The notes under the pieces: generated by a model
What the model was told of the DNA's origin: nothing
The model's input: the letters and a program-made list of their open reading frames with translations, nothing else
Database searches by the model: none
Source: Chloroflexota bacterium
Lineage (GTDB): Bacteria; Chloroflexota; Anaerolineae; J036; Brachytrichaceae
Length of the DNA stretch: 64,000 nucleotides
Assembly (NCBI GenBank): GCA_030550095.1
Contig: JAUQQA010000008.1
Coordinates: forward strand, 1-64,000
Direction of reading: 5' to 3'
Translations under genes and position numbers: made by a program
Shown here: in pieces, positions 22,167 through 37,776 of the stretch
Layout of the letters: each line of letters opens with the position of its first letter
Position numbering within the stretch: the stretch's first letter is position 1

Positions 22167-25109
22167 TCAGGGAACTCGCCCTGGCGTTGGCTGCTGCGCA
22201 AGCCTAAAGTCTACATTGCAGTTGTCCGTGTCGGCCCCAGGCGGCCAACGCTGGAGTGATGTCCCTGCCTCCAAAGGCTGGGAATATGATACCACATTTT
22301 GTAAAGATCCGCTGAGCCATGCGACGCCGTCCACAACGCGATCATTGACGTCGAGCAGAACCACTTCATCGCCTGTGTTCGCCAGGCTGATGGTGCCCGT
22401 CGCCCAGCTTGCATAAGGAAGCAGCTCCGGCACGTCGGGATCGTAGTCGCTCAGCTCGAAGTGGGGACGAAAGCCCCATTCCTCGCGGAAGCGCGCCGCG
22501 TTCTGCGCAATCACAAGCGCGCGCCCCGCAGGCAACACGGTCCCTGCTGGGAAGACAAACATCCCCTCGAACGGAGAGGTTGAGGGCGAAGCGGCATCGC
22601 CGATCTTGTAGCCGCTCAGGTCTATCGGCTGCCCAGTGGGGTTATAGATCTCAATCCACTCGCGCCCGCTTTCGTCGCCGCCGCGCGGGTTGATCATGAT
22701 CTCGCTGATGAGCGCGTAGTGGATTGGGCGGTAACGCGCCATGGCGAGCGGCAAGAAGATGGGTTGCGCGAATTGGTAATCGCCGCGGAAGACCTCGCGC
22801 AGGAAAGCGAACACCTCTTCCGATTCGACCAGCACGCTCATCTCGCGGTTGCGCTTGGCGCTGGTCTCGGTGCCGTTCCATGAGCCGATGTGTGCCCAAG
22901 CGCGTCCGCCGATGCGCAACAGAAACATCTTGTTGTGGATGCCTAAGCCAGTCGGGTTGCCGCGCAAGGCGCGCAAGTCCCAGGCATGGCTCGCTGCGAG
23001 CGCGTTGAGATATTGTGCGGTGGCGAAGTTGCTGCGCGGTGCCAAGGGATCGTCGTAGTGCTGGTCGAGCAGAAGGCGCACGCGCGCACCGCGTGCCGCT
23101 GCCTGACTGAGCGCAAAGAGGCGCAGGTTCGGCGCAGACACTGGATCGCTACTGAGCGCGCCCCAGAAGGGGTGTTCGCTGAGCTGGTGAGCCAAGATTT
23201 CGTCGCCTTCGCCTGCAAGCGCGAGCAGCGCGAACAAGCCATCGCGCGCGCGCAGATGGCTTTCTGGCGAGGTGTAGAGCGTCAACGTCGCTGGCTGGGT
23301 TGTGCTGAACACAGCGCCGAAACGCACGGTGTAGCTTGTGCCTCCCGAGACTGTGATCGGCTCAAAAGTGGGTGGCGGTGCGCCAAAGGGCGCGCAGGTC
23401 TCACACCAGCGCGTGATGTCGCGGTGGTTGAAGTCGGCCTCGAAGATCGCATTTGCACGCGCCACGAGCGGTGCTGCGTCGGTGAGCAACACCACGCCAC
23501 GCTGGCCTGCGGTGCCGTCGAGCTTGTCGTCATGCGGCATGCCGCGCAGGCTGAAGTTCTCGGTGCTGATCAACAACCGCTGCTGATCCAAGATGGCGAA
23601 CTTCGCGTGCAAGAAGGCATAGCGCGCGCGGATGTTCTGGTTGGCGTCGCTGCGCATGAACCAGCAACCGCTGCGCCCTGTGATGTCGGCGCGCGTGATC
23701 TGCTGGCAGATCCAGCGCGTTTGATCGGGCAAGCCGCCCACTGGCGCGCCGTCGAGCAACACGCGCACGACAACGCCTTGTGCCGCTTTCTGAGCGAGCA
23801 GCTCACCGAGCGCAGGTTGATCGAAGGTGAACGACTCAAGGTCAATGCTGTGCGTTGTTTCGCTAAGGGCGCGGTGGACGAACTCGAAGCTGGCATCAGG
23901 CGCGATAGCGATCTGCACGTGTCCCGTGCCACTAACGGGTTGGAAGAATGACTCCATGCGCCAGCCCGGGTAGATCGGTCTGCGCGTTACCAGTGGGTCG
24001 CCGAAGTGGTTGAACCAATCCTCGGCGCGGTTGGTATCAGGGACGGGTAAGCCTGTCGCCTCGTCGAGGCGACGCATGAGCACCTGCCCTTCAGCGGGGA
24101 TGGTGTGCGTCACAGTGTAGGGCTGCAACGGCGGCCCCTCCCATCCGGCTTGCGGTGTGCCGTTGCCATACACCAACGTATCCACCACCTCACGCTGCGG
24201 GTTTATCAGGCGCAGGCGCGCGCCTGTGTTGGGCAAGGAAAACGAAGCCGTTTGGTTAGCTTGCGCGCCGCTGCTAAAGGTGTTGGCGCTGCGCTGCAAC
24301 AAGAAATAGCCACGTGCAGGGATTGTGCCGCTCAGGGTGATGGTTGTCGGGCTAGTGGCGATGATCTCTAGTTGCCACTCGTTCAGGTTGACTGGTGTCT
24401 CAAGGTTGTTGAATAGCTCGATCCACTCGTGGTTGGCGTTGTAGCGCGTGCCGCCCCAGGCGACTTCGTTGATCACCACAGAGAGCGTGACGTGCACCGA
24501 GGGCGTGATAGCAACGGAGTTGCGCGCGCCTGGCGTGCCCATGATTGGGTTGCCGCCGCCATCAAAGGCGATAGGCGCGGGCGGGTCTGCGCTGCTCCAA
24601 TTTGCGTCGGTATCGGGTGCGCTGCTGTCGCGCCGCTCCATTGAACGGTAGGTAGGGCTGCCGCTCCCAGCAGGCCAACCGCCACCGTCGTCATTGGCGG
24701 TGTCCACAAGGATTGGAGCGTGGCGGACGAGGCGCACCGACCCGCCTGTGTTGGCGAAAAGCAACGCGCCCTCGTAGCTCAGCGTGGGTGAGAAGCCGAA
24801 CTGTCGCTCAAACGCAGCTGCGTTGTTAGCGATCCAGAGCCTCTCGCCCGGGCTGAGCGTATAGAGGGGAAAACGCCAGCTTCGGTTGTTAGCGTCGAGC
24901 AATTGCCAATCAGGCCCCAGCGCGATGGGCGCATCGGAGACGTTGACGATCTGCACGCCCTCGTCGGCATTGCCTTCGTAGCCGTAGTAAGCGAGGGCGC
25001 TGATCAGCACCGGCGCCTGAGCATACGTGGTTTGCAGCGGCGCAACGACGTTGAGGATCAGCAGCAGTGCGCTCATCGGAACGCGCTGCCATACACAGCG
25101 ACGACCCAT
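22167..25109 (-). CDS. Secreted phospholipase D-like protein with three lamin-tail domains
   Basis: 980 residues from ATG 25109 (alternative ATG 25076). A basic N-terminus and hydrophobic stretch ending TTYAQA form a signal peptide. Order: lamin-tail-like domain (LISALAYYGYEG, about 35-160), a second (VVINEVAWGGT, about 210-360), two phospholipase D-like halves, and a third lamin-tail domain (LISEIMINPRGGDESGREWIEIYN, about 790-960). The first PLD half has a full HxKxxxxD (His501, Lys503, Asp508). In the second half His725 and Lys727 are present but Arg732 replaces the Asp. Probably an extracellular phosphodiesterase; the substrate (lipid or nucleic acid) is open. Confidence 0.85.
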   Translation of the reverse strand: MGRRCVWQRVPMSALLLILNVVAPLQTTYAQAPVLISALAYYGYEGNADEGVQIVNVSDAPIALGPDWQLLDANNRSWRFPLYTLSPGERLWIANNAAAFERQFGFSPTLSYEGALLFANTGGSVRLVRHAPILVDTANDDGGGWPAGSGSPTYRSMERRDSSAPDTDANWSSADPPAPIAFDGGGNPIMGTPGARNSVAITPSVHVTLSVVINEVAWGGTRYNANHEWIELFNNLETPVNLNEWQLEIIATSPTTITLSGTIPARGYFLLQRSANTFSSGAQANQTASFSLPNTGARLRLINPQREVVDTLVYGNGTPQAGWEGPPLQPYTVTHTIPAEGQVLMRRLDEATGLPVPDTNRAEDWFNHFGDPLVTRRPIYPGWRMESFFQPVSGTGHVQIAIAPDASFEFVHRALSETTHSIDLESFTFDQPALGELLAQKAAQGVVVRVLLDGAPVGGLPDQTRWICQQITRADITGRSGCWFMRSDANQNIRARYAFLHAKFAILDQQRLLISTENFSLRGMPHDDKLDGTAGQRGVVLLTDAAPLVARANAIFEADFNHRDITRWCETCAPFGAPPPTFEPITVSGGTSYTVRFGAVFSTTQPATLTLYTSPESHLRARDGLFALLALAGEGDEILAHQLSEHPFWGALSSDPVSAPNLRLFALSQAAARGARVRLLLDQHYDDPLAPRSNFATAQYLNALAASHAWDLRALRGNPTGLGIHNKMFLLRIGGRAWAHIGSWNGTETSAKRNREMSVLVESEEVFAFLREVFRGDYQFAQPIFLPLAMARYRPIHYALISEIMINPRGGDESGREWIEIYNPTGQPIDLSGYKIGDAASPSTSPFEGMFVFPAGTVLPAGRALVIAQNAARFREEWGFRPHFELSDYDPDVPELLPYASWATGTISLANTGDEVVLLDVNDRVVDGVAWLSGSLQNVVSYSQPLEAGTSLQRWPPGADTDNCNVDFRLAQQPTPGRVP

Positions 25110-25140
25110 ACACGCGTGGTTTAGCGAAAACTTTCGGGGA

Positions 25141-25169
25141 ATTATGGGGCGTCGTAGCGGGAAGCACAA
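25141..25169 (-). promoter_or_regulatory. Candidate promoter for the secreted phospholipase D gene
   Basis: On the minus strand TTGTGC, 17 nt, then CATAAT (25146-25141), just after the mutS stop. The -10 is good and the -35 half-matched. Confidence 0.4.
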
Positions 25170-29399: not shown

Positions 29400-29648
29400 A
29401 TGGATTTGGAAGCAGCACTCGTTCTCGGCAAAGCGATCGGCGCCGGAATCGCAGGCGGCGCGGGCATGATTGGTCCTGGCATCGGCATTGGTCTGGCAGG
29501 GTTGGGCGCGCTGATCTCCATCGGGCGCAACCCAGAGGTGACCTCAACCTTGCAGACCTACATGATCCTCGTGATCGCCTTCGCGGAAGCGCTTGCTATC
29601 TTCGCGCTGGTGATCTCGTTCCTGTTGCTGTTTGCGTTCCAGGGCTAA
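29400..29648 (+). CDS. atpE: ATP synthase Fo subunit c
   Basis: An 82-residue hairpin of two helices forming the rotor ring. The glycine-rich first helix (GAGIAGGAGMIGPGIGIGLAG), the polar loop RNPE and the ion-binding Glu63 (VIAFAEALAIF) are clear. The Na+-type signature (Gln in helix 1, Glu followed by Ser/Thr in helix 2) is absent, so proton coupling is expected. GTCAAGGAGTG precedes ATG 29400. The in-frame ATG at 29358 is rejected because it adds a hydrophilic tail. Confidence 0.96.
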   Translation: MDLEAALVLGKAIGAGIAGGAGMIGPGIGIGLAGLGALISIGRNPEVTSTLQTYMILVIAFAEALAIFALVISFLLLFAFQG

Positions 29649-29667
29649 CATACAGGAGGCGGAGACC

Positions 29668-30456
29668 GTGCACGTCTTTCTCGCATTGACTCGTGTCTTA
29701 GCGGAAGGGGGTGGGAGCGATCCCTTCACGGGTTTGGGCATCAATTTCGTGCAGGTGATCGCGCAGATCATCAACTTCCTGCTCATCATGTATTTCCTGA
29801 ACGGCATGGTGATCCGTCCAGTGCTGCGCAACCTCGAGGCACGGCGCAAGCGCATCGAGGAGAGCCTAGAGAACGCGCGCAAAGCGGACGAGCGCCTTGC
29901 TAACGTCGAGAAGGATTATCAGGCTCGCATGGCGGAAGCAGCAGCCGAGGCGCAAAAGTTGCGCGCCGAAGCGCTCGCAGCCGCTCAGCAAGAGGCACAG
30001 CGCATCCGCGCCGAAGCGCAGGCCGAAGCAGAACGCATTCGCCAGCAAGCGCGCATTGACGCGCTCGCTGAGCGCAATCAGCTCCTCGCCGACGCGCGCA
30101 ACCAGATCGTCGCCCTGGTCATTGCCGCGACAAATAAGCTGGTCGGCGACGCCCTCGATGCCAATCGCCAACGCGCGCTGATCAACGATTTCTTCAGCAA
30201 GGTTCCTGCGGTGAGCTTCGCAGGGGTGCAGGTCGCGGGCGCGCCCGTCACCGTCACCAGCGCGCTACCACTGACGCCCGAAGAGCAGGCGCGCGTCAAG
30301 GCTGACCTTGAGGCGCACTTGGGCAGCATCAGCGAGATTCACTTCAACGTGGATCCGTCCATCCTTGGTGGGTTGACCATTCGCGTGGGTGATAAGGTGA
30401 TTGACGGCAGCGTGGCAAGCAAGATCAACGCGCTGCGCGCGCAGCTTGCTGCCTGA
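29668..30456 (+). CDS. Fused ATP synthase subunit b and C-terminal delta domain
   Basis: 262 residues from GTG 29668, preceded by AGGAGGCGGAG. Residues 1-178 are a normal b subunit: one membrane helix (about 26-48, FVQVIAQIINFLLIMYFLNG), then an Ala/Glu/Arg-rich coiled stalk. Residues 193-262 match only the C-terminal part of delta/OSCP (VTVTSALPLTPEEQ, then VDPSILGGLTIRVGDKVIDGS). The six-helix N-terminal delta domain that caps the alpha subunits is missing. It is the last gene of the operon; no alpha, gamma, beta or epsilon genes follow. A separate delta elsewhere cannot be excluded. Confidence 0.85.
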   Translation: MHVFLALTRVLAEGGGSDPFTGLGINFVQVIAQIINFLLIMYFLNGMVIRPVLRNLEARRKRIEESLENARKADERLANVEKDYQARMAEAAAEAQKLRAEALAAAQQEAQRIRAEAQAEAERIRQQARIDALAERNQLLADARNQIVALVIAATNKLVGDALDANRQRALINDFFSKVPAVSFAGVQVAGAPVTVTSALPLTPEEQARVKADLEAHLGSISEIHFNVDPSILGGLTIRVGDKVIDGSVASKINALRAQLAA

Positions 30457-30480: not shown

Positions 30481-30519
30481 AGAGCGGGGTAGCGAGGCTG
30501 TTGCCCCGCTCTTGCTTTT
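30481..30519 (+). terminator. Rho-independent terminator of the Fo operon
   Basis: Stem AGAGCGGGG (30481-30489) with CCCCGCTCT (30504-30512), then TGCTTTT. It ends the atp operon and overlaps the last bases of the convergent ATP-grasp gene. Confidence 0.75.
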
Positions 30520-31561
30520 ACGCAGCCAGCGCAAGCACACGCTGGCGCAGGGTGCGCTGGCGATTGTGGCGCGCCACTGCCATGCGAATGATGCGGCTGA
30601 TCGCCTCGCCGTAGGTGTAACCAGCGGTGTTGCACGCGCCGATGAAGCCGCCGCTCGGCGTGATGTCGGGGTTGGGGTTCACGTCCACCACCCACACGTT
30701 TTCCTCTGCGTCCACGCGCAAGTCCACGCGCGCGTAATCGCGGCAGCGGAAAACGCGATATGTGCGCAGGCTGACTTCGTGAATGCGTTGACGGAGTGAT
30801 TCCGAGATCACGGGTTGCGTGATGACAGGCATTGCTTGCCAGTCGAAGCTGTTGGGCACCCATTTGCTCTCCCACGTCACGATGTGGTGATAAGGGTTGC
30901 TCAGGCGCGAGAAGTCGATCTCGCGCAGCGGCAACACCTGTGGGCGCCCGTTTCCCCAAATGCCAACGTTGATCTCTCGACCCACGATGAAACGCTCGGC
31001 AAGCGCAGGCTCTTTCACCGTCTCGATCACGTACGCCACGCGCGCGCGCAACGCTTCGAGGTCATGCACCACAGCCTCGCGTGTGACTGCGACCGAGCAA
31101 TGTTGGCTAACGGGCTTGACGATCGCGGGGAACCAAGCTGGGTTCCACGTGCGTTCGTTCACCTCATCGGGGCTGCGAAAGCCGCGCCCAGGAGGTGTTG
31201 GGATGCCGTAGCGTTGCAGAAAGCGTTTCACGCGGTGCTTCTGCACGGAAAGACGGAGCGCGTAGGGCGGGTTGCCTGTGTAGGTGTATCCCATGGCGTC
31301 CATCTCGGCGCACACGCGCGCGTCGCCGTCTATCTCACCTTCTACCCCTTCGCACCAGTTGAACACGATCCACTCCTCGGGGTCGAAGGGCGCGAGCGCA
31401 GGGCGCACGTCCTTCCAAAAACGCGCAATGGCGACGCGATGCCCAAGCGCGGCAAGTTCGTTTGCCAAGTGCTCAGCAAGTGCGTCGGCTTCGCGGCGTT
31501 CCTGCTCAGTCCATGTAGTGTAATCGTTGTAGAGGATGACAACAGGTGCTGGTGATCGCAT
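30518..31561 (-). CDS. D-Ala-D-Ala ligase-like ATP-grasp enzyme (third gene of ATP-grasp/GNAT operon)
   Basis: 347 residues. ATP-grasp features: the ATP Lys in PAIVKPVSQHCS, FIVGREINVGIWG, and the metal-binding end DYARVDLRVDAEENVWVVDVNPNPD, where Asp replaces the usual Glu of E-x-N. The N-domain contains VFNWCEGVEGE, matching FNTCEG in the paralogous first gene, and both share the YGIPTPP/YGLPTPP block, so the two arose by duplication. It is not a standard Ddl (no GSSGVG loop) and likely joins a carboxylate to an amino group on an unknown substrate. It starts 21 nt after the GNAT stop. Confidence 0.85.
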   Translation of the reverse strand: MRSPAPVVILYNDYTTWTEQERREADALAEHLANELAALGHRVAIARFWKDVRPALAPFDPEEWIVFNWCEGVEGEIDGDARVCAEMDAMGYTYTGNPPYALRLSVQKHRVKRFLQRYGIPTPPGRGFRSPDEVNERTWNPAWFPAIVKPVSQHCSVAVTREAVVHDLEALRARVAYVIETVKEPALAERFIVGREINVGIWGNGRPQVLPLREIDFSRLSNPYHHIVTWESKWVPNSFDWQAMPVITQPVISESLRQRIHEVSLRTYRVFRCRDYARVDLRVDAEENVWVVDVNPNPDITPSGGFIGACNTAGYTYGEAISRIIRMAVARHNRQRTLRQRVLALAA

Positions 31562-31582
31562 GCGCCCTCCTTGGTCTCGGAT

Positions 31583-32092
31583 TTATCGCAAACGCTTCCA
31601 GTAGATGTTGAGGTCGTCCCCATCGCGGTAGTAGTCGGGGACGGTGGCGACGTGCTTGAAGCCAAACGCGGCGTAGAGCTGACGCGCTGGCGCGTATGGA
31701 GGTGTTGAAGAGGTGTAGATCACCATGAGGCGCGCGTGATGCATGAGGGCATCGTGGAGCGCGGCTTGCAACAAGGCCCGCCCCGCGCCCTGGCGGCGTG
31801 CCGAGGAGGCTACGCAAATCCAAAAGAGATCCCACGTGTCCTGCGTGAGCGACTCAGGGCCGTAACACGCAAAGCCGATCACGGCACCTGCACGCTCGGC
31901 GACGAGCCAGCGGTAGCCGTCAGGTTGGGGGCGCTCCCACGTCTCGACGAACATGGCGTCCACGCACTCCACATCGCTGATCCCGAACAGGTCGGAGTTG
32001 AGCAACACGTTGCGGATCGCTGCGCCGTCGTCTGGAGTGGCGGCGCGCACGAGCGCGGTGCTGGTCTGCGCGGGGGATTCAAGCCATGCCAT
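31583..32092 (-). CDS. GNAT N-acetyltransferase (middle gene of ATP-grasp/GNAT operon)
   Basis: 169 residues, single GNAT domain. Acetyl-CoA motif A reads FWICVASSARRQGAGRALLQAAL, and the C-terminal helix-strand ends in QLYAAFGFKHVATVPDYY. It resembles amino-acid or peptide N-acetyltransferases but the substrate is unknown. ATG 32092 overlaps the end of the first ATP-grasp gene by 14 nt, so translation is coupled. Its fixed place between two amide-forming ligases suggests it acetylates a substrate or product of theirs (inference). Confidence 0.85.
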   Translation of the reverse strand: MAWLESPAQTSTALVRAATPDDGAAIRNVLLNSDLFGISDVECVDAMFVETWERPQPDGYRWLVAERAGAVIGFACYGPESLTQDTWDLFWICVASSARRQGAGRALLQAALHDALMHHARLMVIYTSSTPPYAPARQLYAAFGFKHVATVPDYYRDGDDLNIYWKRLR

Positions 32093-33194
32093 AGCGTAGC
32101 AATGCCGCACCCAACACAGCGCGCACGAGGTCGCCGTGTGTCCATCCCTCAGCTTGTGCCATGAGGGTCAAGTCGCTGCGCGGTGCGATGCCCGGCAAGC
32201 CGTTGATCTCCAGGATGTATAGCCGCTCTTGGGCATCGAGACGAAAGTCCACGCGCGCGAAATCGCGGCAGCCGGTGACGAGGAAAGTCTGGTGCGTCAG
32301 CTTGCGCACAGCTTGCGCGAGTTTCTCGCCGAGCGGTGCAGGGCACTTGTTTCGGTAAAGGTGGTCGTAGTCAACCTTTTGCAGCGAGCCGTAGATGGGC
32401 AACAGCTCTGGCGGGTAGCCGCTGAAGTCCACCTCGGTGATGGGGAAGATGTGCACAGCGTTGCCGTTGCCGACCAAACCGCAGGTGATGTCGCGCCCTT
32501 CGATGTACTGCTCCACAAGCGCGGGTTGTTGGTAAGCTGCAATGCACCAGGCGACGCGATCGCGCAGTTGGCGCTCGTTGTGCACCACGCTCTCGTTGTG
32601 CACGCCCATGCCTGTGCCTTCATGTGCGGGCTTAACAAAAAGGGGAAAGCTGAGTTGCGGATCGAGATCTTCATCGGGTGTCTCGAACACCTGAAACGGC
32701 GGCGTGGGTAAGCCGTAAAAGTGCAGAATGCGCTTTGTGGTGGGCTTGTCTTGCGTCACCGCTGCAGCAAGCGGCGCAGGACCGCTGTAGCGCATGCCGA
32801 GCATCTCAAGCAACGCAGGCACTTGCGCTTCGCGGCTATCCCCGCCAAATCCCTCGCATGTGTTGAAGCACAAGTCCGGACGATGCGCCTCGAGCCAGGT
32901 GGCAAGGTGTGCGTTGCCTTCTTGGATCAGCACCTCGTGCCCGGCTTCTTCGAGAGCGCGCGCATAAGCCGCGACGTTCTTCTCACTGTCCAGCTCGACC
33001 CACAGGTCGGGCGGCGTGATGGGGCGATACACAGGCGGGGCGTTGCGCGCCAGATTTACCAACAGCGCGATGCGATATGGACCAGCAAACGCTGCGCGTT
33101 TCAGTCGCTCTCCGATATCGCCCTCGGGTGTAGTGCCATCGCGCGACGCTTTGAATGTTAAAGGTTCTGCTTTAAGGTTGAAGAGGGCGCTCAT
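32079..33194 (-). CDS. D-Ala-D-Ala ligase-like ATP-grasp enzyme (first gene of ATP-grasp/GNAT operon)
   Basis: 371 residues. The ATP-grasp core is clear: FPLFVKPAHEGTGMGV, EQYIEGRDITCGL, ARVDFRLDAQERLYILEINGLPG with the Mg-binding E-x-N. The N-domain has CFNTCEGFGGDSREAQVPALLEMLG, typical of a Ddl-like substrate domain. It leads a three-gene operon with a GNAT enzyme and a second, paralogous ATP-grasp. A consensus promoter lies about 50 nt upstream, and two near-identical 18-bp palindromes flank it, one of them inside codons 7-13 of this gene. The product of the pathway is unknown. Confidence 0.88.
   Translation of the reverse strand: MSALFNLKAEPLTFKASRDGTTPEGDIGERLKRAAFAGPYRIALLVNLARNAPPVYRPITPPDLWVELDSEKNVAAYARALEEAGHEVLIQEGNAHLATWLEAHRPDLCFNTCEGFGGDSREAQVPALLEMLGMRYSGPAPLAAAVTQDKPTTKRILHFYGLPTPPFQVFETPDEDLDPQLSFPLFVKPAHEGTGMGVHNESVVHNERQLRDRVAWCIAAYQQPALVEQYIEGRDITCGLVGNGNAVHIFPITEVDFSGYPPELLPIYGSLQKVDYDHLYRNKCPAPLGEKLAQAVRKLTHQTFLVTGCRDFARVDFRLDAQERLYILEINGLPGIAPRSDLTLMAQAEGWTHGDLVRAVLGAALLRYGMA
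33158..33175. promoter_or_regulatory. Palindromic element 1 (putative operator) within the ATP-grasp 5' coding region
   Basis: TTAAAG-N6-CTTTAA, 18 bp, 15/18 identical to element 2 at 33296-33313. Including the 7-nt TTGAAT(G/C) flank the match is 21/25. The elements are 138 bp apart, close to 13 helical turns, so they face the same side of DNA. Confidence 0.5.
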
Positions 33195-33246
33195 GCATCA
33201 TCATCCCACTGCTGGGTGTGGGCAACATCGCAGTTCTTCGTTTGCG

Positions 33247-33274
33247 ATTCTATGAGAGGCAAAGTGTGTGTCAA
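33247..33274 (-). promoter_or_regulatory. Consensus promoter of the ATP-grasp/GNAT operon
   Basis: On the minus strand TTGACA (33274-33269), 16 nt, TAGAAT (33252-33247). A perfect -35 and a 5/6 -10, one of the best promoters in the window. Transcription should start near 33240, giving a leader of about 45 nt. Confidence 0.75.
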
Positions 33275-33295
33275 TGGATTTAGCACGCTTGAATC

Positions 33296-33313
33296 TTAAA
33301 AAGTCTGCTTTAA
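33296..33313. promoter_or_regulatory. Palindromic element 2 (putative operator) upstream of the ATP-grasp promoter
   Basis: TTAAA-N8-TTTAA core, 18 bp, located 21 bp upstream of the -35. Together with element 1 it brackets the promoter, as in looping repressors. Confidence 0.5.
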
Positions 33314-33365: not shown

Positions 33366-34403
33366 TCACATGCTGCCGCGCAAGAAGCGCTCAACGAGGG
33401 TGATGTCTTTGCGCCAGCCTTCGCGCACCTTTGCCCAAAGTTCGAGGTACACGTGTGCGCCGAGTTCGCGCTCGATCTCACGGCGCGCTTGCGTGCCGAT
33501 GCGGCGCAGCATGGTGCCCTCCTTGCCGATCAGGATCGCTTTTTGCGATTCGCGCTCGACGTAGATGGTTGCGGCGATGTAGATCGTGCCGTTCTTGCGC
33601 ACTTGCCAATCCTCGATGGCAACGGCGATCACATGGGGAATCTCTTGGCGCAGAAAGCGCAACGCTTGCTCGCGGATCAGCTCAGCGACGAGGAACTGCT
33701 GGGATTGGTCGGTGTGTTGCCCGGGCGGGAAGAAGCGCGGACCGAAGGGCAGGCGCTCGATCAGCAGCGCGACGAGCTTCTCAAGGTTGTCGCCGCGAAG
33801 CGCGGAGATGGGCAGCGCGGGCGGTGTGTCGCCGAGCGGAGGGGCATCTGGCGTGAGCGGCGGGATCGCAGCCTGGATCAAAGCGAGGTGCTTTTCGAGG
33901 TGTCGCTCTGCCTCTTGGGGCTTTAGCGCGTCCGCTTTGTTCATGGCGAGCACCTTCGGCTGCTTGGCTGCTTGCACTAACTCTGCGACGCGGTAGTCCT
34001 CGCGGTTGGGCATGCGGCTTAAATCTGTAACGAATAAGATCACATCGCAATCGGCAAGCGCAGCCTCCGCTTCGTGCACCATGAACTGGTTGAGCGCTTG
34101 CCATGGCTGATGCATGCCAGGCGTATCGGTGAATAGAATTTGCGCGTCGGGTCGCGTGAGGATGCCGAGCACGCGCCGGCGCGTCGTTTGTGGCTTCGGC
34201 GAGGTGATCGCCACCTTGCGCCCCACCAGTGCGTTGACCAGCGTGGACTTGCCGACGTTTGAGCGCCCGATCACCGCGACGAACCCTGAGCGGTGATCGG
34301 GGGGAAGCGCTTCCTCGCTTTGACCGCTCAGGAAGGATTCGATGATGGCGCGGTTGTCCTCGTCGTGGGGCGCAGGGGGCGTGGGCGTCTCAGGCTGGCT
34401 CAT
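33366..34403 (-). CDS. era: GTPase Era
   Basis: A 345-residue GTPase for 30S maturation that binds the 3' end of 16S rRNA. G1 reads GRSNVGKS, G3 DTPGMH and G4 MNKAD. The C-terminal KH domain contains KAILIGKEGTMLRRIGTQAR. It is longer than the usual 300 owing to an N-terminal Pro/Glu-rich extension of about 40 residues and an insert with PLTPDAPPLGDTPP. The start at 34403 overlaps the upstream fused FAD/2Fe-2S gene by 14 nt. An unusual operon partner for era. Confidence 0.94.
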   Translation of the reverse strand: MSQPETPTPPAPHDEDNRAIIESFLSGQSEEALPPDHRSGFVAVIGRSNVGKSTLVNALVGRKVAITSPKPQTTRRRVLGILTRPDAQILFTDTPGMHQPWQALNQFMVHEAEAALADCDVILFVTDLSRMPNREDYRVAELVQAAKQPKVLAMNKADALKPQEAERHLEKHLALIQAAIPPLTPDAPPLGDTPPALPISALRGDNLEKLVALLIERLPFGPRFFPPGQHTDQSQQFLVAELIREQALRFLRQEIPHVIAVAIEDWQVRKNGTIYIAATIYVERESQKAILIGKEGTMLRRIGTQARREIERELGAHVYLELWAKVREGWRKDITLVERFLRGSM

Positions 34404-35802
34404 GGTTTGTCGGTGCTTGCGCAACCCGGCGGAAGGCTTCGAGGATGGCGTAGTATCCTGTGCAGCGGCACAGGTTGCCGCTGATGCTCTCGCGGATTTG
34501 CGCCTCGGTGGGATGCGGATGTTCCTCAAACAGCGCGGCGCCGCTCATGATAAAGCCCGGCGTGCAATAGCCGCATTGCACGGCGCCTGTCTCGATGAAG
34601 GCATGCTGCAAGGGGTGGAGCGCGTCGTCGTGGGCTAGTCCCTCGATGGTGGTGATCGTCGCGCCGTGCGCATGAGGGGCAGGCACAAGGCACGCCATCA
34701 CCGCGCGTCCATCGAGGATCACAGTACAGGCGCCGCATTCGCCCTCGCTGCATCCTTCTTTCACACCCGTCAAGCCGCAGTCCTCGCGCAGCAAGCGCAG
34801 CAAGGTTTTGTATTGCGCCTCGGGGTTTGTGATCACGTATGGCTGGCCGTTGGCGACGAGGTGAATGGCGCCATTGGCGGGTTGCGGCGCGTGCACGCGC
34901 GCCTGTGGTGTGCGTAGCAGCGCGGGCGCGTGCCAGTGCTCGTGTTCGCGACCTTCGGCAATGCGCTGGAGGGCGCGGCGAACGCACACCGCCACCATCT
35001 CGCGGCGATAGGCTGCGCTAGCGCGGATGTCGTCAATGGGGGCGCTGGCTTCTGCGGCGGCTTGCGCAGCGCGCTCGATGTTCGAGTCGGAGAGGGGTTG
35101 CCCTTCGAGCAGGCGTTCTGCTTCTTCGGCGCGGATGATCGTGGGGGCGACGGCGCCCAGCGCGATGCGCACGTCGTGGCACACGCCTTCGCGCAACGTC
35201 AGCACCACCGCGCAGTTCACCACGGAGATCGCCTGCGCGCGCCGTAGCCCGAGCTTGATGAAGCAGCCACGTTGATCGGCGCGCATTGCTGGAAAGGTGA
35301 TGTCCACCATGATCTCATCGGGTTGCATCACCGTCTTGCGCACGCCAAGGTAGAAATCGCGTAGCCGCACGCGGCGTTCGCCGTGCAGCGAGCGCAACGT
35401 AACGACTGCGTCGAGCGCCATGAGCGGCACAATCGTGTCGTTGGCGGGCGAGGCGGTGATCAGATTGCCGGCGATGGTGCCGCGGTTGCGGATTTGCGGC
35501 GCACCCACTTCGCGACATGCTTGTGCAAGGGGCAGCGCGTTGTTCACGCACAACGCCGAAGCCACCACATCGTTGTGCGTGACCAGCGGGCCGAGGTGAA
35601 TCCAGCCTTCCGCGTCTTGCGCGATGGTGTCGAGGCCGGGCACGCCTGTGATGTCAACCAACGTGCACGGCGGGCGGACACGCCGATCGAGTTCGACGAC
35701 CAAATCGGTGCCTCCAGCAATCACGCGCGCCTCGGGTGCATACTGGGCGAGCAACGCCAGCGCCTCGGCAAGCGTTTGAGGGCGAAAGTATTCGCGCCAC
35801 AT
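34390..35802 (-). CDS. Fused FAD-binding and [2Fe-2S] subunit of a xanthine dehydrogenase/CO-dehydrogenase-type hydroxylase
   Basis: 470 residues. The N-terminal 290 residues are a CoxM/XdhB FAD domain ([33 protein letters not shown]). The C-terminal part (about 320-465) is a CoxS/XdhC ferredoxin with ligands in [18 protein letters not shown] and CRCTGY. These are usually two proteins; the order FAD then Fe-S is the reverse of eukaryotic xanthine oxidase. The molybdenum subunit is not next to it. The ATG at 35802 has TATCAT 11 nt upstream. Era overlaps its end. Confidence 0.9.
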
Positions 35803-35813
35803 GGTGCGCGTGA

Positions 35814-35819
35814 ATGATA
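35814..35819 (-). promoter_or_regulatory. -10 element TATCAT before the fused FAD/Fe-S gene
   Basis: Minus-strand TATCAT ends 11 nt before ATG 35802; no Shine-Dalgarno. Confidence 0.35.
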
Positions 35820-35859
35820 CGCGAAAGCGCGCTTTTGTGCCTGGCGCTTTGTGGCGTGG

Positions 35860-35865
35860 TATCTT
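35860..35865 (+). promoter_or_regulatory. -10 element TATCTT before the S8 peptidase gene
   Basis: TATCTT ends 10 nt before ATG 35876; no Shine-Dalgarno. Confidence 0.35.
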
Positions 35866-35875
35866 TGTTTGCCCC

Positions 35876-37054
35876 ATGCACTTGCCGTTCATCAACGATC
35901 TCGAGGACGTGGCTTTGGTGTTGCCAGTGGCATTGCGGGTGAACGCAGAGGGGCGCTTTAGCGGTCGGGGGGTGACGATCGCAGTGCTGGACTCCGGCTT
36001 TTACCCTCACCCTGACCTCACGGAACCCGTGAACCGCATTCTTTACCACGTGGATGCTCGCTTTGATCCACCGCGTGCTGGAGTGCGTCTGGGCCCGCCT
36101 CGAGCGCTGAGCTGGCACGGCACGATGGTCGCAGGCGTGTGCGCAGGGAGCGGCTTGCGCTCGATGTACCGCTATGCAGGCTTGGCATCGAAAGCGCATC
36201 TGGTGCTGGTAACGACTGGCAAGCCGCGCAGCCATCACATCACCGAGGACGACATTGCGCGCGCATTGCGCTGGGTCGTGCAACACGCGCAGCGTTTTAA
36301 CATCCGCGTGGTGAACATCTCCGTCGGCGGTGACATCCCCTCAGATGGTCGGCTCACGCCGTTAGACGCGCTTGTGGAGGAAGCGGTCGCGGCTGGGCTG
36401 GTGGTGGTCTGCGCCATTGGCAACGAGGGCGCGCCGAAGGTGATTCCACCGGCAAGTGCGCCTTCCGCGATCACCGTCGGCGGCGTGGACGATCAAAACA
36501 GCCTTGATCGCGCGCGCTGGCGAATGTACCGCTCGAATTACGGGACGGGCGCGCTCGGCGTCGCCAAACCAGAGGTCATTGCGCCAGCGGCATGGGTTGC
36601 TGCGCCGATGATCCCCGACACCCCTACGCATCGCGCGGCGCAACTATGGTGGCATCTCGAACATGCGAGCGAGCGCGTGTTGCCAGATGTGCTGCGCACG
36701 CGCCTGGCGCGTCAGCTCCTCACGCAAGAGCAGCGCCGCTTGCCAGCACATCAGCTGCGTCGGCTGGCACGCCAGCGCATCAACGAGCAAAAATTCATCC
36801 ATCCGCACTACCAACATGTGGACGGCACCTCATTTGCCGCAGCGATCGTCTCTTCAGTCGTCGCGCAGATGTTAGAGGCGAACCCATCGCTCACACCGAG
36901 CGAGGTCAAGCGCCTGCTCATGCAAACAGCGCGCCCCCTGCCCGATGTGCCGCGGGAGCGGCAAGGTGCGGGCGTGATTGATGCTGGCGCAGCCGTCGCT
37001 GCGGCTTTGGCTGCGCGTCTTCCCGCTCAGCCTTCTCCGGTCAAGCAACCATGA
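35876..37054 (+). CDS. S8 (subtilisin) family serine peptidase
   Basis: 392 residues, with the catalytic triad Asp39 (AVLDSG), His81 (WHGTMVAG) and Ser319 (DGTSFAAA), plus oxyanion Asn183. No signal peptide or propeptide is visible, so it may work inside the cell. An Arg/Gln/His-rich insert (about 250-310) precedes the Ser. The upstream in-frame start at 35801 runs across the promoter and is rejected. An esterase overlaps its stop by 4 nt (ATGA). Confidence 0.9.
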   Translation: MHLPFINDLEDVALVLPVALRVNAEGRFSGRGVTIAVLDSGFYPHPDLTEPVNRILYHVDARFDPPRAGVRLGPPRALSWHGTMVAGVCAGSGLRSMYRYAGLASKAHLVLVTTGKPRSHHITEDDIARALRWVVQHAQRFNIRVVNISVGGDIPSDGRLTPLDALVEEAVAAGLVVVCAIGNEGAPKVIPPASAPSAITVGGVDDQNSLDRARWRMYRSNYGTGALGVAKPEVIAPAAWVAAPMIPDTPTHRAAQLWWHLEHASERVLPDVLRTRLARQLLTQEQRRLPAHQLRRLARQRINEQKFIHPHYQHVDGTSFAAAIVSSVVAQMLEANPSLTPSEVKRLLMQTARPLPDVPRERQGAGVIDAGAAVAAALAARLPAQPSPVKQP

Positions 37055-37776
37055 ACCGCGAGTATCACGTTTGGTGGAGCCCAAACCTTGGGCGCAAGAT
37101 GGAGCTGCTGGTGTTCGGGCATCACGGTGCGCGCGTGATCATCTTCCCGACGTCGCGCGGGCGCTTTTACGAGTGGGAGGATCGCGGCATGTTCGGCCCG
37201 AGCGGCCTGGGCTACCACATTGCACAGGGATGGTTGCAAATCTTCTGCGTGGATAGCGTGGACGAGGAGAGCTGGTACAACTACAGCGCTCACCCTGGGC
37301 ATCGCGGCTGGAGGCAAACGCAGTACATGAATTACATCCGTGACGAGGTGCTACCCTTGACGCAGGCGAAGAACAGCAACCCCTTTCTCATCGTCATCGG
37401 CGCCAGCTTTGGCGCGTATCATGCAGCTTGTTTTGCGTTCAAGTTCCCGCATCTGGTGGGGCGTGTGATTGGGTTGAGCGGCGTGTACGACATCAAGCGC
37501 TTCACGGGTGGCTACAGCGACGACAACGTTTACTTCAACAACCCCATGGACTTTCTCCAGCACGAGCACGATCCAGCGCGCATCGGCGCCATGCAACGCA
37601 TGGACATCATCCTCGCCGTCGGGCGTGACGACCCGCTGCGACCCGAGTCGGAGCGGCTATCGGGCATCCTGTGGGGCAAAGGCATCGGCAACGCGCTGCG
37701 CATTTGGGACGGTTGGGCGCACGATTGGCCCTACTGGCAGCAGATGCTGCATCACTACATCGCTGGGCAGCGCTAG
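37051..37776 (+). CDS. Putative esterase (alpha/beta hydrolase, esterase D-like)
   Basis: A 241-residue alpha/beta hydrolase. The nucleophile elbow is GASFGAY (Ser about 113), the acid is likely the Asp of AVGRDDPL, and the His that of GWAHDWPYW. The N-terminus (YHVWWSPNLGRKMELLVFG) matches the putative esterase/FrmB type acting on short acyl or thioesters. No signal peptide. The start overlaps the S8 peptidase stop (ATGA), so synthesis of the two hydrolases is coupled; why is unknown. Confidence 0.88.
   Translation: MNREYHVWWSPNLGRKMELLVFGHHGARVIIFPTSRGRFYEWEDRGMFGPSGLGYHIAQGWLQIFCVDSVDEESWYNYSAHPGHRGWRQTQYMNYIRDEVLPLTQAKNSNPFLIVIGASFGAYHAACFAFKFPHLVGRVIGLSGVYDIKRFTGGYSDDNVYFNNPMDFLQHEHDPARIGAMQRMDIILAVGRDDPLRPESERLSGILWGKGIGNALRIWDGWAHDWPYWQQMLHHYIAGQR

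Follow-up and report, generated by a model that had tools for sequence, protein, structure and literature searches.

What would a bacterium make with two ligases resembling D-alanine-D-alanine ligase (Ddl) and an acyltransferase encoded between them? The question is raised by three consecutive genes in a 64,000-nucleotide stretch of a Chloroflexota genome (hereafter the window), in which a first-pass annotation, made from the letters alone, had seen a candidate for an unknown pathway of amide-bond synthesis. The cassette and its signals are laid out as follows:

32079-33194, minus strand: ligase 1, a Ddl-like ATP-grasp amide ligase with an E-x-N motif (371 aa), first gene of the cassette
31583-32092, minus strand: GNAT N-acyltransferase (169 aa from the ATG at 32092)
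30518-31561, minus strand: ligase 2 (copy 2C), a Ddl-like ATP-grasp protein with a D-V-N motif (347 aa), last gene of the cassette
33247-33274, minus strand: promoter-like site TTGACA-16-TAGAAT upstream of ligase 1, 11/12 in a consensus scan
30481-30512, no strand assigned: hairpin of 14 pairs found by scan, terminator-like on the plus strand, between the cassette end and the convergent ATP synthase b/delta gene

Both ligases carry the Pfam domain PF07478 (118.7 bits in ligase 1 and 93.1 bits in ligase 2) and share 32% identity over 303 residues, which agrees with their earlier description as paralogues flanking a GNAT; the latter carries PF00583. The longest open reading frame of the GNAT covers 31583-32110 on the minus strand, with a GTG at 32110 as another possible start; the ATG at 32092 was chosen from the family alignment, in which the first Met of the congener's homologue (L021) aligns there. 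It is this start that gives the exact 14-nt overlap with ligase 1 reported in the first-pass annotation, and the 21-nt gap between the GNAT and ligase 2 is likewise present. The one consensus promoter claimed corresponds to a single sigma-70-like site (33274-33247, minus strand) with 11/12 matches, where shuffled sequences gave a mean of 0.6 sites with at least 9/12; its role as a promoter is a prediction. Rfam gave no match anywhere in the 64-kb window.

The neighbours of the cassette are ATP synthase genes, Era and MutS. There are no peptidoglycan genes among them, and the true Ddl of this genome is encoded on a separate contig (C9), so the cassette does stand apart from the wall genes as described. 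Some of the surrounding genes have unusual architectures. ATP synthase subunits b and delta are fused in a protein of 274 aa (29632-30456, plus strand; ATP-synt_B and OSCP), and the a-c-b/delta run stops at 30456 with the next gene convergent; the catalytic subunits are therefore not adjacent. A single reading frame at 34390-35895 (minus strand) encodes two molybdenum hydroxylase subunits in one, the FAD-binding and the [2Fe-2S] subunit (domains FAD_binding_5, CO_deh_flav_C, Fer2_2). Adjoining mutS, a protein of 1000 aa (22167-25169, minus strand) contains three Lamin Tail Domain stretches together with phospholipase-D-like domains.

Whether the two ligases could simply be Ddl enzymes was judged from scores, residues and trees. 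With the NCBIfam Ddl models, whose cut-off is 243 bits, they score 103.7 and 159 bits at best. Aligned to E. coli DdlB, both retain K97, K144, E180, K215, R255, D257, E/D270 and N272, and in both the residues that recognise D-Ala are altered: Glu15 (for which the alignment is uncertain), Tyr216 and the D-Ala2 pair Ser281-Leu282, replaced by SD (ligase 1) or GG (ligase 2). The true Ddl of the window's genome keeps these recognition residues, L282M excepted. In the DdlB Glu270 column, ligase 1 has E-I-N and ligase 2 D-V-N, confirming the Asp-for-Glu exchange noticed earlier; a D-x-N metal motif is common to many ligase 2 homologues. The AlphaFold model of ligase 1 (pLDDT 87.8) finds its best PDB fold matches in Ddl structures, and that of ligase 2 has a pLDDT of 94.5. 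Trees reveal two old ligase lineages, L1 (ligase 1) and L2 (ligase 2). Where the Dehalococcoidia-like ligase 1 branches with respect to the L1 clade of Anaerolineae is less certain than the separation of the two lineages within the Anaerolineae. Given the scores below cut-off, the changed D-Ala residues and the separate clades, an identity as plain Ddl was rejected; neither is a full match to a Ddl.

The sequence kinship with Ddl could still suggest a role in the cell wall, where the ligases and the GNAT would make or cap an unusual stem peptide or cross-bridge. No wall genes adjoin the cassette, however, a true Ddl is encoded separately, and the operon is also found in small genomes that, judged by their size, we take to be Dehalogenimonas and Dehalococcoides. 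These two genera are known for having no peptidoglycan. We hold a function in the wall to be very improbable.

The cassette itself is conserved far beyond chance, since ligase 1 shares 92% identity with its counterpart in a congener and the same gene order is found again across the window's family, whose named records include Thermoflexales and Candidatus Roseilinea. The genes are thus not scattered singletons in this family. Nearly all family genomes have the order ligase 1 - ligase 2B - GNAT - ligase 2C, with two L2 copies; the window's cassette is without ligase 2B and so keeps a single representative of each old lineage. The proposal of a dedicated amide-bond pathway is therefore strongly supported by joint conservation, but the exact trio on which it was founded derives from a larger set. 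The congener (G002) possesses two cassettes, L022 on contig C13 and L021 on contig C14, of which one is complete and one is without 2B; both adjoin ATP synthase genes, and the pair is a natural duplication followed by loss. In two other genomes (L043, L045), a single fusion protein of 500-517 aa combines ligase 2B with the GNAT.

The most informative member of the set lies outside the window, where the first-pass annotation could not see it: kamA, encoding a lysine 2,3-aminomutase, which points to beta-lysine as a substrate. Among 80 named Anaerolineae loci it directly precedes ligase 1 on the 5' side in about 24 (the 80 loci with a phylum or genus name come from one contig scan and are all from Chloroflexota). 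Among the phylum-survey loci the same arrangement is found in 15/20, and in nine of these kamA-L1-L2-GNAT forms a clear, compact operon. Thermoflexus has the order kamA-L1-L2-GNAT-L2. The compact form recurs in small Dehalococcoidia-like genomes of 1.4-2 Mb, in three of which kamA-L1 alone is left. Where ligase 1 occurs without kamA, it often follows a gene for an MFS-type transporter, as in 11 Anaerolineaceae loci (among L109-L136).

Co-occurrence across 301 Chloroflexota genomes gives the same picture: ligase 1 is present in 49, all of which have KamA, against 56 of the 252 others. The GNAT was found in 31 genomes, 30 of them with ligase 1, and a strong L2 in 25, every one with the GNAT (Fisher values of 3e-27 and similar, which ignore shared ancestry). 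Five genomes of another family contain kamA, ligase 1 and the GNAT, all unlinked, so that the association with KamA extends beyond gene neighbourhood. Many ligase 1 genomes are without the GNAT and mostly without ligase 2, and a strong KamA is present in 26 of the 31 such GNAT-less genomes tested (counting one fragmented gene). Ornatilinea apprima, for example, has ligase 1 but neither ligase 2 nor the GNAT. The core product is thus probably a compound made by KamA and ligase 1, to which ligase 2 and the GNAT add an extension.

Linkage is looser in the window's own family, in which kamA is unlinked to the cassette and its neighbour genes are uninformative; in the window's genome (G000) it lies on contig C19 at 36300-37568. 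No strong KamA was found in the same-family ligase 1 genomes G006, G015, G019 and G023, some of which are incomplete. Nor is KamA exclusive to the pathway, as 56 genomes carry it without ligase 1; all this speaks against the beta-lysine reading. One group of Chloroflexota genomes with a strong KamA and no ligase 1 is represented by L257-L262. The unlinked KamA of the window's family and its presence elsewhere without the ligases would suit a cassette that makes an N-acylated peptide from ordinary alpha-amino acids, in the manner of N-acetylglutaminylglutamine amide (NAGGN) synthesis or of an L-amino-acid ligase, with KamA coincident (for example in a parallel solute pathway), and ligase 2 has a weak sequence kinship with the L-amino-acid ligase BL00235 (3vot). 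Set against this are the presence of KamA in all 49 ligase 1 genomes of the survey and, in two classes, operons in which kamA directly precedes ligase 1, and we consider the alpha-amino-acid explanation unlikely.

The KamA proteins themselves look like lysine enzymes. Those of the window's genome and of G032 (P0004) pass the lysine 2,3-aminomutase model TIGR03820 with 534 and 556 bits (cut-off 525) but not the glutamate, arginine or EpmB models. Two Dehalococcoidia-like KamA that were tested score 462-477 bits, below the same cut-off, so that for them lysine is a likely but less certain substrate judging from sequence. All 74 complete KamA keep the Asp293/Asp330 pair (numbering of the C. subterminale enzyme), which in that enzyme binds the side-chain amine of lysine. 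As for lysine fermentation, none of 40 relatives has Lys-AminoMut_A (PF09043), a model that the control did not match either, so that true absence does not follow.

A lysine-type aminomutase next to a ligase could also act on a protein, as in the beta-lysylation of EF-P, and in one locus (L038) the EF-P gene does adjoin the operon. This adjacency was seen once, the KamA reaches 262 bits where the EpmB cut-off is 369, and EpmA exceeds its cut-off in one of 40 relatives, which is not the window's genome. The EpmA/EpmB system was rejected on these scores, and we give protein modification almost no credence.

We return to a small molecule built on beta-lysine. On balance it is probable that the trio forms the ligation and acetylation part of a Chloroflexota pathway for amides of beta-lysine (a diamino acid), the cassette most likely joining beta-lysine to another amino acid with acetylation of the product. 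KamA would convert L-lysine to beta-lysine. Ligase 1 would activate a carboxylate with ATP as the acyl phosphate and join it to an amine, beta-lysine being one of its two presumed partners; ligase 2 might then form a further amide bond, and the GNAT would acetylate a remaining free amine from acetyl-CoA. Both this order of steps and acetyl as the acyl group are our suggestion. One would expect a small peptide of beta-lysine bearing an N-acetyl group. It could plausibly serve as a compatible solute or thermolyte, an idea derived from the wide occurrence of the genes and from acetylation, by analogy with N-acetyl-beta-lysine and NAGGN. More speculatively, N-acetylated beta-lysine di- or tripeptides of a class not described before, made by an ancestral kamA-ligase1-ligase2-GNAT operon, might be a main small-molecule protectant (or a polyamine-like cation) of Anaerolineae and Dehalococcoidia, with related KamA/ATP-grasp pairs recurring in Proteobacteria.

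The gene set is conserved, the pathway apparently undescribed. No description of it was found in the open literature covered, and no relevant open paper links "aminomutase" with "ATP-grasp"; such neighbourhoods may be mentioned in a subscription paper, the survey of amidoligases by Iyer et al. (2009). Chloroflexota genes that are routinely annotated as "D-alanine--D-alanine ligase", apparently even in organisms without peptidoglycan, thereby become candidate members of a single pathway whose precursor can be named.

Outside the phylum, a survey of plasmids revealed no intact set of kamA, ligases and GNAT, but Ddl-like ATP-grasps near KamA were found in Bradyrhizobium and Thioflavicoccus. On the Thioflavicoccus plasmid, an ATP-grasp of the L2 lineage lies between a lysine-type KamA and genes for diaminopropionate and diaminobutyrate. 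Rhizobial symbiotic plasmids (L267-L274, including pNGR234a) encode related Ddl-like ATP-grasps without annotated function. In one case, in Bradyrhizobium, an annotated lysine 2,3-aminomutase and a gamma-glutamyltransferase are nearby; in Sinorhizobium the nearby genes are of ectoine type. These rhizobial proteins form a separate clade in the trees and the Bradyrhizobium KamA is without the lysine-type motif, so we count them as weak support. Together, the Thioflavicoccus and rhizobial neighbourhoods give a hint that diamino acids are the substrates of this branch of Ddl-like ligases.

The same plasmids, where related ATP-grasps occur near diaminopropionate, diaminobutyrate and MFS genes, might instead suggest a specialised metabolite, such as an antibiotic or a siderophore-like peptide containing a diamino acid. 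Such a product is distinctly improbable, as ligase 1 occurs in almost all genomes of the window's family and also in the small ones of 1.4-2 Mb, and most loci have no recurrent linked exporter or resistance gene. Our preferred reading remains the beta-lysine amide pathway, and it can be placed among known systems.

With Ddl, both cassette ligases share the fold, the ATP-grasp domain and the catalytic residues; they differ in falling far under every Ddl cut-off, in their separate clades and in the lack of wall genes nearby. MysD is the Ddl-like ligase type of mycosporine synthesis. NAGGN synthesis is a case in which an acetyltransferase and an ATP-grasp ligase cooperate on a small peptide solute. 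There, acetyltransferase and ATP-grasp are fused in one protein whose partner is asparagine-synthase-like, whereas the cassette has KamA and separate Ddl-like ligases. The NAGGN family TIGR03103 is absent among all nine NCBIfam families matched by the GNAT and among the best 25 NCBIfam matches of each ligase, and no asparagine-synthase-like partner adjoins the cassette. For the GNAT, the clear homologue is the PDB entry 2r7h, titled "putative D-alanine N-acetyltransferase" (173 bits with the family profile, the next match reaching 44, and 93 bits with the window's GNAT alone), a solved structure for which the cassette provides a context. An identity of the GNAT with AblB was rejected: none of 40 relatives exceeds the TIGR03827 cut-off, and the control genomes did match. 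The N-epsilon-acetyl-beta-lysine pathway (AblA and AblB) nevertheless offers the same combination of a lysine 2,3-aminomutase with a GNAT-type acetyltransferase, and the KamA of the window's genome passes the AblA model; the cassette differs from it by the addition of two ATP-grasp amide ligases.
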